Below, one piece after another: positions 31,080-35,175 of a stretch of 64,000 bases of DNA. This stretch comes from Prochlorococcus sp. AG-402-N17 (lineage in GTDB: Bacteria; Cyanobacteriota; Cyanobacteriia; PCC-6307; Cyanobiaceae), in contig QCIV01000001.1 in NCBI GenBank assembly GCA_003216455.1, positions 151,862 through 215,861 on the forward strand, given 5' to 3'. Under the pieces are notes generated by a model. It did no database searches. It saw only the letters and a list, made by a program, of their open reading frames with translations, and was not told where the DNA came from. Within the stretch, counting starts at the first letter, position 1. Every line of letters starts with the position of its first letter. Both the position numbers and the translations under genes were made by a program.

Positions 31080-31892
31080 GTGATTGATAAAATTGCGATT
31101 ATTGGTTTTGGAAATATTGCAAGTGCTATAGTAACTCCTCTATTAGATAACAAATTAATTCAGCCAGAGAATGTTTTTTGTGTTGTAAATTCAGAAAAAA
31201 GTTTAGAAAATATAAAAAAAAATTACAAACATAATATAAACGTTTATAGTTCAGGTTCTAAAGATTCAAAAATAATTTGGGATTGTCAATATAAGCTTCT
31301 TTCGATAAAACCCCAACAATTTAATAATATAAGTGAGGCTCATCATATAAAAAACAAGGACAATTTAATAGTTTCAATTCTTGCGGGGGTTTCATTAAAT
31401 AGACTTACTCAGAAGTTCCCTAATCATAAATGTGTGAGGGTGGTTACAAATATTCCAATAATTATTAGTAAAGGTTTAACAGGGATTTCTTGGGGAGAAG
31501 AAATTACGGAAGATCAGAAACAATTTACAAAAAAATTATTTGAAAATACTAGTAAAATTTATGAATTTACTGAAGACTACCTTGATATATTTTTAGCTTT
31601 AACTTCATCAGGTCCTGCAATTATTGCTTTAATTATAGAAGCATTAAGTGATGGAGGATTAAGCGGGGGATTACCAAAAATAATTTCAGAGGAACTTGTT
31701 ATGGAAATGATACTAGGGACTATTTGTCTAATAAAAGAAAATAAACTTACTACTTCTGAGCTTAAAAATTTAGTAACCTCTCCGGGAGGAACAACTATTT
31801 CTGCTTTAAGAGTTTTAGAAAAAAAGAGTGTAAGGTCAGCATTAATTGAATCAATAGTTTCAGCTAGTAATCGAAGTAAAGAGTTTCGTTAG
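31080..31892 (+). CDS. proC: Pyrroline-5-carboxylate reductase
   Basis: A 270-residue oxidoreductase with an N-terminal dinucleotide fold (IAIIGFGNIASAIVTPLLDN), VSILAGVSLNRLTQKF, RVVTNIPIIISKGLTGISWG and the C-terminal substrate domain TSSGPAIIALIIEALSDGGL, TSPGGTTISALRVLEK. It makes proline from pyrroline-5-carboxylate. The usual RxMPN motif is modified (RVVTNIP). Its stop overlaps the glycosyltransferase end on the other strand by four bases. Confidence 0.93.
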   Translation: MIDKIAIIGFGNIASAIVTPLLDNKLIQPENVFCVVNSEKSLENIKKNYKHNINVYSSGSKDSKIIWDCQYKLLSIKPQQFNNISEAHHIKNKDNLIVSILAGVSLNRLTQKFPNHKCVRVVTNIPIIISKGLTGISWGEEITEDQKQFTKKLFENTSKIYEFTEDYLDIFLALTSSGPAIIALIIEALSDGGLSGGLPKIISEELVMEMILGTICLIKENKLTTSELKNLVTSPGGTTISALRVLEKKSVRSALIESIVSASNRSKEFR

Positions 31893-33055
31893 TTTTTTAA
31901 ATTATCTTTTAGGTTCATATAAACTTTTTCAAGTGAATTTATATTTTTAGTAATTGTGTATCTCTCAAGTATACGTTCTCTAGCTTTTTCTCCAAGATCT
32001 TTTGTAAATGAGGGGTGTTCTACAAGAATTGGGATTATAGTTTTTAATTGTGCAGCCACATTGTCAGTTGAAATTACTATTCCTGCTCCGTTATCTAAAA
32101 CTTCACCATCAGCTCCGGCATCTGTAGCTACACAAGCAGTACCAGCAGACATTGCCTCTAAAAGTGATAATGATAAACCTTCTACTAAGCTTGGCAAGAA
32201 AAATACCTCTGCTATTTGCATTATTGCTACCCTAGTTTCTAAATCTAATTCGGCACCCCACCAAATTAATTTCTCATTACCAAGGTTAGAAAAACTATTT
32301 TCAAGTGTTGGCTTCATTGGTCCATCCCCAACAATAACTAATTTGCAATTTTGAGTTTTTGTTTGGCGCCAAGAACGTAAAAGTGCCTCGATATTTTTCT
32401 CATTTGCAATCCTTCCCATATATAAAAAGATTCTTTCATTTCCAAGTTTGTTTTTTACCTGATCATATTTTTTACTTTTTTCGCAAAAAGGTTTCCAAAT
32501 ATTTTCATCAACGCCGTTTGGAATAACTATTTGTTTTTTTGTAGGTACTCCTAATTTATCAAGAACATTTTTTTGAGGTTCAGAAAAAATAATTATTTTA
32601 TCGAACTTTGCTAAAGATGGAGCATAAAGTTGATAGGTTAATTGTTGAGTGCTCGCAGTTAGATTTCTATTTTTTGCATCAAATGGTGGATGAAATGTTC
32701 CTATAAGAGGAACATTAATTTCATTACACAGCTCTGGAAGTCTAAAGTCTAATGGAGATAAAGTTAGGCTTGCATGTACTATGTCAGGTTTTAATCTTTC
32801 CAATGATAGTCTTAGCTCTTTTTCTGCCCTTGGTGAAGGTATTGTATAAACTTGAGATTTAATTAAATATGGGAGACTTACATCAGGATCATTTGCAAGA
32901 AATAATGGTTCTGATGAATTTGAACTAGAGGGATTGTCGAAATGAATAAAACTAATTTTATGCCCTCTGGCCTTCAATTCCTTAGTAGTTGAATTGCCAT
33001 AAGTTACATTTCCGCAAAAAGGGGATTTTTTACCCAGCCAGGCAATATGAACCAC
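31889..33055 (-). CDS. Glycosyltransferase family 4
   Basis: A 388-residue GT-B enzyme: an N-terminal acceptor domain (HIAWLGKKSPFCGNVTYGNS, PDIVHASLTLSPL) and a C-terminal donor domain with NGVDENIWKP, YMGRIANEKNIEALLRSWRQ, LVIVGDGPM and the E-x7-E motif in LPSLVEGLSLSLLEAMSAGT. It transfers a sugar from a nucleotide donor to lipid or carbohydrate; the acceptor is unknown. Transcribed with recO and the deoC homologue in the same direction but separated by 85 bases. Length is normal. Confidence 0.88.
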   Translation of the reverse strand: MVHIAWLGKKSPFCGNVTYGNSTTKELKARGHKISFIHFDNPSSSNSSEPLFLANDPDVSLPYLIKSQVYTIPSPRAEKELRLSLERLKPDIVHASLTLSPLDFRLPELCNEINVPLIGTFHPPFDAKNRNLTASTQQLTYQLYAPSLAKFDKIIIFSEPQKNVLDKLGVPTKKQIVIPNGVDENIWKPFCEKSKKYDQVKNKLGNERIFLYMGRIANEKNIEALLRSWRQTKTQNCKLVIVGDGPMKPTLENSFSNLGNEKLIWWGAELDLETRVAIMQIAEVFFLPSLVEGLSLSLLEAMSAGTACVATDAGADGEVLDNGAGIVISTDNVAAQLKTIIPILVEHPSFTKDLGEKARERILERYTITKNINSLEKVYMNLKDNLKN

Positions 33056-33140: not shown

Positions 33141-33926
33141 TTAACTATATATTTCTCTCAACATTTTTAGTGAAGATAATTCTTTCTCTAGTTGAGAAGA
33201 GATCCAAGTCTCAATAATAAATAATATTTTAAGCCAGACTTTTTTAGGTCCTAATAACTCTCCATTAGATTTTATTGGTAATTCGGGAAAAAGAAGTCTT
33301 TGTAATAGAGCAACTTCAGATGAATTTATTTTTAGATTACTTTGAGGATCTTCAATTGACGAAAACCCTTCACTTGGCAAATAATAACAACGCCAGTCCC
33401 AATTTCCTAAAGGCGGAATAATAGGTTCTCCAGTTTTACAGCAATGATGAATTGGTAAATTTATACCTCCAATGGCTAATAGATGGATTAAAGATTGAAT
33501 ACTCATTGAGAGCATTTTAATATCTTCTTCTTTAGATTCTTCATACAAATAAATCCTATCTAGATGTGCAAGAACACAAGATAAATAGTTTTGTTGCTTA
33601 TCATTATTACCTACTAATAAAAAAGTTAATTCAGTTATTGCTTGCGCGGCTGCAAGACATTCAATATTTTTCCCTAGACCAGAATAGCTTTTTAATATTT
33701 TAATTTGACGTACAGATTTAAGATTTCTTTTCCCAAAAATTTGCAGACTTAAATATGTTAATGGAGTAGCTGCGGCAAGACTACTTTTAGGACGTCTAGC
33801 ACCAGGTACCGCTAATCGAACAATCCCCTGCTCATCAGTAAGAATAGTTATTAATCTATCATTCTCGCCTAATGGAGAAGCTTTAATACAGAGTCCCTCT
33901 AGTCTGCACTCACCAGAACCAGACAT
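33141..33926 (-). CDS. recO: DNA repair protein RecO
   Basis: A 261-residue protein: the N-terminal OB domain (LCIKASPLGENDRLITILTD, GIVRLAVPGARRPKSSLAAA, YLSLQIFGKRNLKSVRQIKI) followed by the helical domain, with a remnant of the zinc region (HHCCKTGEPIIPP). RecO loads RecA on SSB-coated DNA with RecR. The gene starts where deoC-like ends, with no gap (33926/33927). Confidence 0.9.
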   Translation of the reverse strand: MSGSGECRLEGLCIKASPLGENDRLITILTDEQGIVRLAVPGARRPKSSLAAATPLTYLSLQIFGKRNLKSVRQIKILKSYSGLGKNIECLAAAQAITELTFLLVGNNDKQQNYLSCVLAHLDRIYLYEESKEEDIKMLSMSIQSLIHLLAIGGINLPIHHCCKTGEPIIPPLGNWDWRCYYLPSEGFSSIEDPQSNLKINSSEVALLQRLLFPELPIKSNGELLGPKKVWLKILFIIETWISSQLEKELSSLKMLREIYS

Positions 33927-34583
33927 TTAAAAATTTACTTCTTGGAAAATCTCACAAAAATTAGAAGTTCCAACGCAACTAATTCCATTATCAAACAAAT
34001 CAATAACTTGTGTCAGTTTTTTTATACCACCTACAACTTTTATTTGATTTTGAGAGCCTGTTATTTTTAGTATTTCGGGGACATCATTAGATGTAAGAGG
34101 AGATCCAAACCCGTCCCCAAATTGAAAATTTTTTATTCCTAATTCCAAACATATTTCTATCGCATTAATAAAAACTTCTTCTTGTAGTTTTGATTTATTT
34201 ATGATTATTGAAACTGGTAATCCAGATAATTTAACTTGCTCAATTTCAGCAGCGAAAGTTTCTAAATTTCTTTTGGATAAATTGATAAAGTTTGGGATAT
34301 ATTCAATTCCTTTTGCACCCTTATCTTTTGCAAAACAAACTAATTCTTCAATAAATGAAACTGGTAAATCTGCTAAAGGGTAAGAAATAAGTGCGTTTAT
34401 ATCCGCACTGTAATTACCCAAACAGTTTTTAAGATCAGTTAAATAATTTAGTGAAGTAGAAATATTTTTGATATTGTATTTTCTTATTAAATCGCAATTC
34501 ACACAGAAATCTTCCCATGATAAATAAGGGTTAATAATAATCGCATGAATTTTCTCGTTTAATTCATATTCAATATTGGGCAT
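33927..34583 (-). CDS. deoC: DeoC-like deoxyribose-phosphate aldolase homologue, catalytic residues altered
   Basis: A 218-residue TIM-barrel protein with the overall layout of DeoC: IHAIIINPYLSWEDFCVNCD, DINALISYPLADLP, the strand VSIIINKSKLQEE, then FQFGDGFGSPLTSNDVPEIL and IKVVGGIKKL. In the known enzymes the Schiff-base lysine lies in a KTSTGF motif; here that motif reads FQFGDGF with Gln at the lysine position. The aspartate of helix strand DxVV also appears as Asn in DINALI. The second lysine (IKVVGG) remains. The protein may be inactive or have a new role. Its start is seven bases from the hpf stop on the same strand. Confidence 0.75.
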   Translation of the reverse strand: MPNIEYELNEKIHAIIINPYLSWEDFCVNCDLIRKYNIKNISTSLNYLTDLKNCLGNYSADINALISYPLADLPVSFIEELVCFAKDKGAKGIEYIPNFINLSKRNLETFAAEIEQVKLSGLPVSIIINKSKLQEEVFINAIEICLELGIKNFQFGDGFGSPLTSNDVPEILKITGSQNQIKVVGGIKKLTQVIDLFDNGISCVGTSNFCEIFQEVNF

Positions 34584-34590
34584 TTAAAAC

Positions 34591-35175
34591 TTATTTAGAT
34601 TGAATCAATCCATAACCTCCATGATTCCTTTTATATATAACTTGAAGTTCATTATTTTTCTTGTTTCGAAAAACATAAAAATCATGATCAATTAGATCTA
34701 ATTGTTTTCTTGCTTCGTCTGATGAAATTGGAGTCATTTCAAAGTATTTATTTTTTATAGATGGCTCAGGCAGACTTGCTTCAGTTCCTTCTTTAAAAAA
34801 AGCTTTATCTAACAAATTTGATTCCATACTTTCAATTGGTAAAGAATCTTTATTTTTAAATTGTTTATTATGAATTGTTTTATTGTTTCTTTCTTTGTAT
34901 TTGCGTAATTTTCTACAAAGTTTATTTGAAACTAAATCAATGCTTGAGTATAGATTTTCAGTTTTTTCTTCAGCTCTAATTACGGTACCATTTGCAAAAA
35001 TAGTAACTTCTGCAGTTTGGAACGAGACTCTTGGATTCTTTTCAATTGAAAGGTGTATGTCAGCTTCTTTAACGATATCCTTATAGTGATGTGTTGCTTT
35101 TTCTATCTTTGCCTCAGTATATTCTTTTAATGCTCCAGTGAGCTCAAGATTCTTTCCATGGATTAAAATTTTCAT
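34591..35175 (-). CDS. hpf: Ribosome hibernation promoting factor, long form (LrtA/HPF)
   Basis: A 194-residue protein. The N-terminal HPF domain (MKILIHGKNLELTGALKEYT, KIEKATHHYKDIVKEADIHL, RAEEKTENLYSSIDLVSNKL) is followed by a disordered linker and the dimerising C-terminal domain (EMTPISSDEARKQLDLIDHD, FYVFRNKKNNELQVIYKRNH, GGYGLIQSK). Long HPF forms 100S ribosome dimers in darkness or stress; LrtA is the light-repressed cyanobacterial form. Upstream of deoC-like, recO and GT on the same strand, so it may head a four-gene transcript. Confidence 0.93.
   Translation of the reverse strand: MKILIHGKNLELTGALKEYTEAKIEKATHHYKDIVKEADIHLSIEKNPRVSFQTAEVTIFANGTVIRAEEKTENLYSSIDLVSNKLCRKLRKYKERNNKTIHNKQFKNKDSLPIESMESNLLDKAFFKEGTEASLPEPSIKNKYFEMTPISSDEARKQLDLIDHDFYVFRNKKNNELQVIYKRNHGGYGLIQSK

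Follow-up and report, generated by a model that had tools for sequence, protein, structure and literature searches.

In 2-deoxyribose-5-phosphate aldolase (DERA, DeoC), the imine-forming lysine, Lys167 in the E. coli numbering used throughout for alignment positions, cannot be exchanged without loss of function, and the role of Lys201 is to lower the pKa of Lys167 (PMC6016325). In the transcriptome of Prochlorococcus NATL2A in darkness, deoC was counted under 'sugar degradation' (PMC5974335). A cyanobacterial essentiality study lists DERA as conserved and non-essential, the essentiality being derived from S. elongatus (PMC5464585). A search of the open literature, whose scope did not extend to most subscription journals and preprints, yielded no description of a lysine-less DeoC in picocyanobacteria. 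Here we analyze a deoC gene of this kind found in a stretch of 64,000 nucleotides from Prochlorococcus sp. AG-402-N17, further referred to as the window. In the S. elongatus-like genomes that we examined, the DeoC homologue likewise lacks the catalytic lysine.

Fold and active site of the protein

The open reading frame runs from ATG to TAA on the minus strand and fills exactly the interval given in Table 1. The NCBIfam deoC model TIGR00126 matches residues 26–212 of the 218-aa protein (E 1.1e-13) with a score of 51.1 bits against a curated cut-off of 117.3, which is below the DeoC equivalog level. The protein has no Pfam match over the threshold, and the Pfam DeoC model PF01791 has no match in its own genome, which is only 67% complete. 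DERA chains in PDB are matched at 2.6e-7 (phmmer). The AlphaFold (AF2) model, built with 45 homologues, contains eight strands (pLDDT 94.2, pTM 0.90). The best 50 PDB matches of this model in Foldseek are all DERA or aldolase entries of the DERA family, and the TM-score to DERA structures is about 0.89, with values up to about 0.9 among the matches listed. A marine relative from another genus likewise has the DERA fold (AF2 and Foldseek). By sequence and fold homology the protein is a member of the DeoC/DERA family. Pfam DHO_dh matches of some marine members reflect a shared phosphate-loop/TIM-barrel signal, not membership.

Table 1. Features of the deoC locus in the window.
Feature	Positions	Strand	Basis
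DeoC-fold protein without the Schiff-base lysine, 218 aa	33927..34583	-	ORF, TIGR00126 below cut-off, AlphaFold model
Gln154 codon, aligned with the imine-forming Lys167 of E. coli	34122..34124	-	alignment, codon counts
FQFGDGF, residues 153–159, counterpart of (F/I)KTSTGF	34107..34127	-	alignment
Glu94 codon on strand 4, aligned with Asp102 of E. coli	34302..34304	-	alignment, model
Lys182 codon on strand 7, aligned with Lys201 of E. coli, kept	34038..34040	-	alignment, model
GTS, residues 205–207, C-terminal phosphate-loop motif, kept; together with GG185–186	33963..33971	-	(nearly) invariant, all groups
recO, beginning immediately behind the stop codon of deoC, gap 0	33141..33926	-	
hpf, ribosome hibernation factor, long form, upstream in the hpf-deoC-recO cluster	34591..35175	-	

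The initial annotation had described a DeoC homologue with the barrel layout, with FQFGDGF at the place of KTSTGF and with the other lysine retained in IKVVGGIK. The family model, the PDB chains and the predicted structure with its fold matches bear out the first of these statements, and the alignment with E. coli DeoC bears out the other two: Lys167 aligns with Gln154 on strand 6, leaving the protein without the imine lysine, and the second DERA lysine is present as Lys182. The claim that the aspartate of DxVV reads Asn in DINALI proved to be a misalignment. DINALI (residues 61–66) forms strand 3, where the E. coli counterpart reads IRIATVTNFP, and the position of Asp102 falls on Glu94 in GIEYI, a conservative D to E replacement. 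E. coli T170, K137, C47 and D16 correspond to D157, S125, S42 and H13.

Distribution and history of the lysine loss

Homologues were collected with each species represented by a single genome (201 genomes in the family, 61 in the order and 98 in the phylum) and supplemented with 80 named loci, nearly all from Prochlorococcus, and with further fetched regions; the alignment set comprised 285 distinct proteins. 'Marine', 'high-light' and 'freshwater-type' are our working group labels, based on inferred genome identities. The gene was found in all 130 high-quality family genomes, and the 13 genomes without a match are all incomplete. In the sampled genomes, which yielded no second DeoC, replacement by a paralogue was rejected; each genome of the order sample has a single DeoC match, one weak partial extra (G078) excepted. 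Phage carriage was rejected as well, the phage collection yielding just two weak Listeria phage records. A DeoC on an IMG/VR contig (L309:3001-3636) keeps the lysine motif as VKTGTGY.

The change is shared by the marine homologues. Position 167 is Gln in 174 of the 175 distinct marine proteins, which comprise 94 of the high-light Prochlorococcus type (Q167, D170; named records include MIT 9201, 9314 and 9401) and 81 from other marine picocyanobacteria (Q in 80, I in one). Sequencing or local error and chance are thereby rejected as the source of the replacement. All 107 other DeoCs of the phylum, the S. elongatus-like pair aside, have Lys at this position: 61 mostly freshwater-type proteins (60 from Cyanobiaceae and one from outside) in KTGSGF-type motifs, and 46 in canonical motifs. 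The codons, CAA/CAG for Gln and AAA/AAG for Lys, are one transversion apart. Six of the freshwater-type Cyanobiaceae DeoCs (L114, L123, L259, L260, L268, L286) have K167 and lack K201 (E, S or Q instead), which suggests that aldolase chemistry may be weakened there too.

The rest of the marine pocket is partly conserved and partly remodelled. Position 102 is D or E in 175/175 proteins (among the 81 non-high-light ones, 67 have D and 14 have E), and K201 is present in 172/175, no other pocket lysine being conserved throughout the marine set. The positions of G171, G204, G205, G224 and A225 (mostly T) are nearly invariant, and the phosphate loops, GG204–205 and GTS, are kept. Substitutions accompanying K167Q in the marine clade are D16 to mostly H, H17 to Q, K137 to mostly R, T170 to N and E141 to D or N. 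Only H17Q, in the column adjoining D16, and K167Q are fixed differently between the marine and K-bearing sets (at least 90% on each side). At a mean pairwise identity of 51%, the Q167 column ranks 16th of 218 by conservation in the marine set, and the replacement motif is itself conserved, as QxGNGFG in the marine clade and QFGDGF in the high-light clade. The marine Synechococcus/low-light group varies at pocket positions 137 (R/T/N/H) and 16 (H/D/N/Y). The marine exceptions are one protein with Ile167 and three with T or Q at 201 (loci L164 in G003, L186 in G053, L229 and L230).

The maximum-likelihood tree was built with the active-site columns removed. On this tree K167 changes twice: the marine clade lost it at its base (SH-aLRT 100), and the S. 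elongatus-like pair did so independently; a thinned sequence set gives the same two changes. A single loss common to the marine clade and S. elongatus was rejected by the AU test (p 3.7e-5). The motif passes from KTSTGF in most cyanobacteria through KTGSGF in freshwater-type Cyanobiaceae and QTGNGF in the marine group to QFGDGF in high-light strains, and the TIGR00126 scores drop along the lineage from about 250–300 to 100–137 and then to about 50 bits. One genome that keeps the lysine (G024) is presumably RCC307, in which case the loss would postdate the divergence of Synechococcus subcluster 5.3. In the S. elongatus-like DeoC (L304, L218, L306:3934-4728; genomes G307 and G245) all three textbook catalytic residues are replaced, giving N102, Q167 and H201.

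The high-light stem is long for deoC (2.42, against 0.69 for recO and 1.21 for hpf), and deoC is stable afterwards. Since the hpf stem is accelerated too, part of the deoC acceleration is lineage-wide; the accelerated stem fits relaxed constraint as well as functional change. Within the high-light group the gene is under purifying selection, with dN/dS of 0.17 for deoC, 0.08 for recO and 0.13 for hpf (simple NG86 estimates). The deoC genes of high-light strains are highly identical, and the copies listed contain no internal stops.

Gene neighbourhood and the deo pathway

The position between recO and hpf reported in the initial annotation was confirmed, and the cluster is conserved. All 94 high-light loci have the order hpf-deoC-recO, as do 79/81 of the other marine and 58/61 of the freshwater-type ones. 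Of the 46 loci with canonical K, 23 of them belonging to the same class, 17 have recO behind deoC, and both S. elongatus-like loci share this arrangement. The gap between deoC and recO is 0 in 94/94 high-light loci and most often −4 in other Cyanobiaceae. Similar glycosyltransferases (M(V/R)(H)IAWLGKKSPFCGNVTY...) are encoded near recO-deoC at 31889-33055 of the window and at L306:576-1727 of an S. elongatus-like genome, a deep conservation of gene order.

Phosphopentomutase (deoB) gave no match over the cut-off in 35 cyanobacterial genomes, K-bearing ones included; 6 of the 14 controls pass. As deoB is missing from K-bearing cyanobacteria too, its absence does not separate the K from the Q lineages, and loss of the deo pathway as the cause of K167 loss was set aside as uninformative. 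Without deoB, the cyanobacterial DeoC is not part of a classical deo pathway even where it bears the lysine. In a survey of PF01048 (PNP), G307 was the sole genome of 35 without a match, and the named S. elongatus control likewise had none; this result is uninformative on the lysine loss and gives partial support to G307 being S. elongatus-like.

Candidate roles of the altered protein

With no lysine at position 167 the K167 imine would be impossible, and the protein is therefore very probably not a 2-deoxyribose-5-phosphate aldolase, this activity having very probably been lost. The initial annotation had concluded that the protein should not be an aldolase under known chemistry, which is well supported by the clade-wide absence of the imine lysine, by the lack of any conserved pocket lysine other than K201 and by the published irreplaceability of K167 (PMC6016325). 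The 'DERA' annotation of the marine picocyanobacterial gene is probably wrong, and, as far as sequences can tell, this conserved core protein of the sampled marine Prochlorococcus and related Synechococcus very probably has a function other than the annotated one.

The account that we favour, and hold to be fairly probable, is that of a vertically inherited cyanobacterial deoC orthologue which lost the imine and was retained because it acts non-covalently on a phosphorylated ligand. Glutamine took the place of the imine-forming lysine in the ancestor that Prochlorococcus shares with its marine Synechococcus relatives. The product is still a DeoC barrel with phosphate-binding loops and the D/E102–K201 acid/base pair; with the nucleophile, K137 and T170 lost, its pocket could, on the most economical view, still take a phosphorylated ligand and move protons. 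Most likely a phosphorylated sugar-type ligand would be bound and acted upon without a covalent intermediate, by either a non-covalent proton-transfer enzyme or a ligand-binding pseudoenzyme presumably co-expressed with RecO and Hpf. The odds of turnover and of mere binding are about equal, and any naming of the ligand, chemistry or partner would be speculative. Against this account, K201 remains and could in principle be a poor substitute nucleophile, the variation at pocket positions 137 and 16 exceeds that expected of a fixed new active site, and the accelerated high-light stem also fits relaxed constraint. Tentatively, and with less confidence than an even chance would warrant, we propose further that in the marine ancestor the sole DeoC, converted in place with no duplication of its gene, became a new non-covalent enzyme or a sensor of sugar phosphates encoded by a core gene, and that it was remodelled a second time in the high-light clade.

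It is quite possible that the protein is a pseudoenzyme without catalysis, which binds its ligand to sense a sugar phosphate (e.g. dR5P or a pentose phosphate) or scaffolds a protein, perhaps in connection with RecO or Hpf. This would agree with a missing nucleophile, retained phosphate loops and a conserved neighbourhood, and with the independent S. elongatus-like loss, where D102 (N) and K201 (H) are replaced too and the adjacency to recO with its 4-base overlap is kept. The loss of the acid/base pair favours a binding or structural role in that lineage. In the marine clade, however, a pure scaffold would have no need of the near-invariant D/E102 and K201, and adjacency of genes alone is no proof of interaction. 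The regulatory or structural role suggested in the initial annotation was a guess; given the retained acid/base pair and phosphate motifs, catalysis without a covalent intermediate is no less plausible.

Such a catalytic role, possible to about the same degree as the pseudoenzyme, would have D/E102–K201 move protons on a phosphorylated sugar in an isomerase-, epimerase- or dehydratase-like reaction, with Q167 and N/D170 binding a carbonyl or hydroxyl. It would explain the near-invariance of D/E102, K201, Q167, G171, F172 and G173 in so divergent a set, and the presence of 8fmd, 'Kemp Eliminase KE70-core', among the PDB matches points to a barrel capable of proton abstraction without its natural chemistry. 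A substrate candidate is lacking, however, no sugar-pathway genes are adjacent, and three marine proteins do without K201.

A decaying gene, kept merely as the operon predecessor of recO with coupled translation, would fit the 0 to 4 bases between the deoC stop and the recO start in most loci, the falling TIGR00126 scores and the long high-light stem; it is unlikely in view of the dN/dS value, the identity and lack of stops among high-light copies, the high-confidence intact barrel model and the conserved replacement motif, and streamlined genomes usually drop useless genes. Aldolase activity persisting through K201 (K182) as the imine lysine is very improbable, for although K201 is the sole conserved pocket lysine of the marine set, three marine proteins carry Q or T in its place, it is known to serve in lowering the pKa of K167, and K167 is irreplaceable (PMC6016325).

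If the loss of the lysine means the loss of the aldolase, the DERA annotations are wrong, as are the metabolic models, and RecO and a ribosome hibernation factor would share their gene cluster with a conserved protein of another role. If the conversion took place in situ, the gene concerned would belong to the core set of the most abundant photosynthetic cells. The motifs KTSTGF, KTGSGF, QTGNGF and QFGDGF in living strains offer a natural path along which to study an in-place loss of aldolase chemistry.

Compared with DERA and the TIGR00126 family, the marine proteins share the fold (TM about 0.89 for the protein encoded in the window), orthology, the phosphate loops, K201 and D or E at 102; they differ by Q at 167, D or N at 170, S or R at 137 and, in the high-light clade, S at 47, and the protein encoded in the window scores below the family cut-off. 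The nearest K-bearing relatives, the freshwater-type Cyanobiaceae DeoCs (KTGSGF), have the same hpf-deoC-recO cluster and already carry S169G, but unlike the marine proteins they retain K167 and K137 in 61/61 cases and have lost K201 in 6/61. The S. elongatus-like homologue (L304, L218) resembles the marine ones in its independent K167 to Q change and in recO being next with a 4-base overlap, and differs in D102 to N, K201 to H, the retention of K137 and T170, and the absence of an adjacent hpf among the genes found. Cyanobacterial pseudo-orthocaspases (PMC6426788) offer a parallel, with a conserved fold and replaced catalytic residues; they belong to another fold and family, whereas in the present case the altered protein is the genome's only copy of its family.
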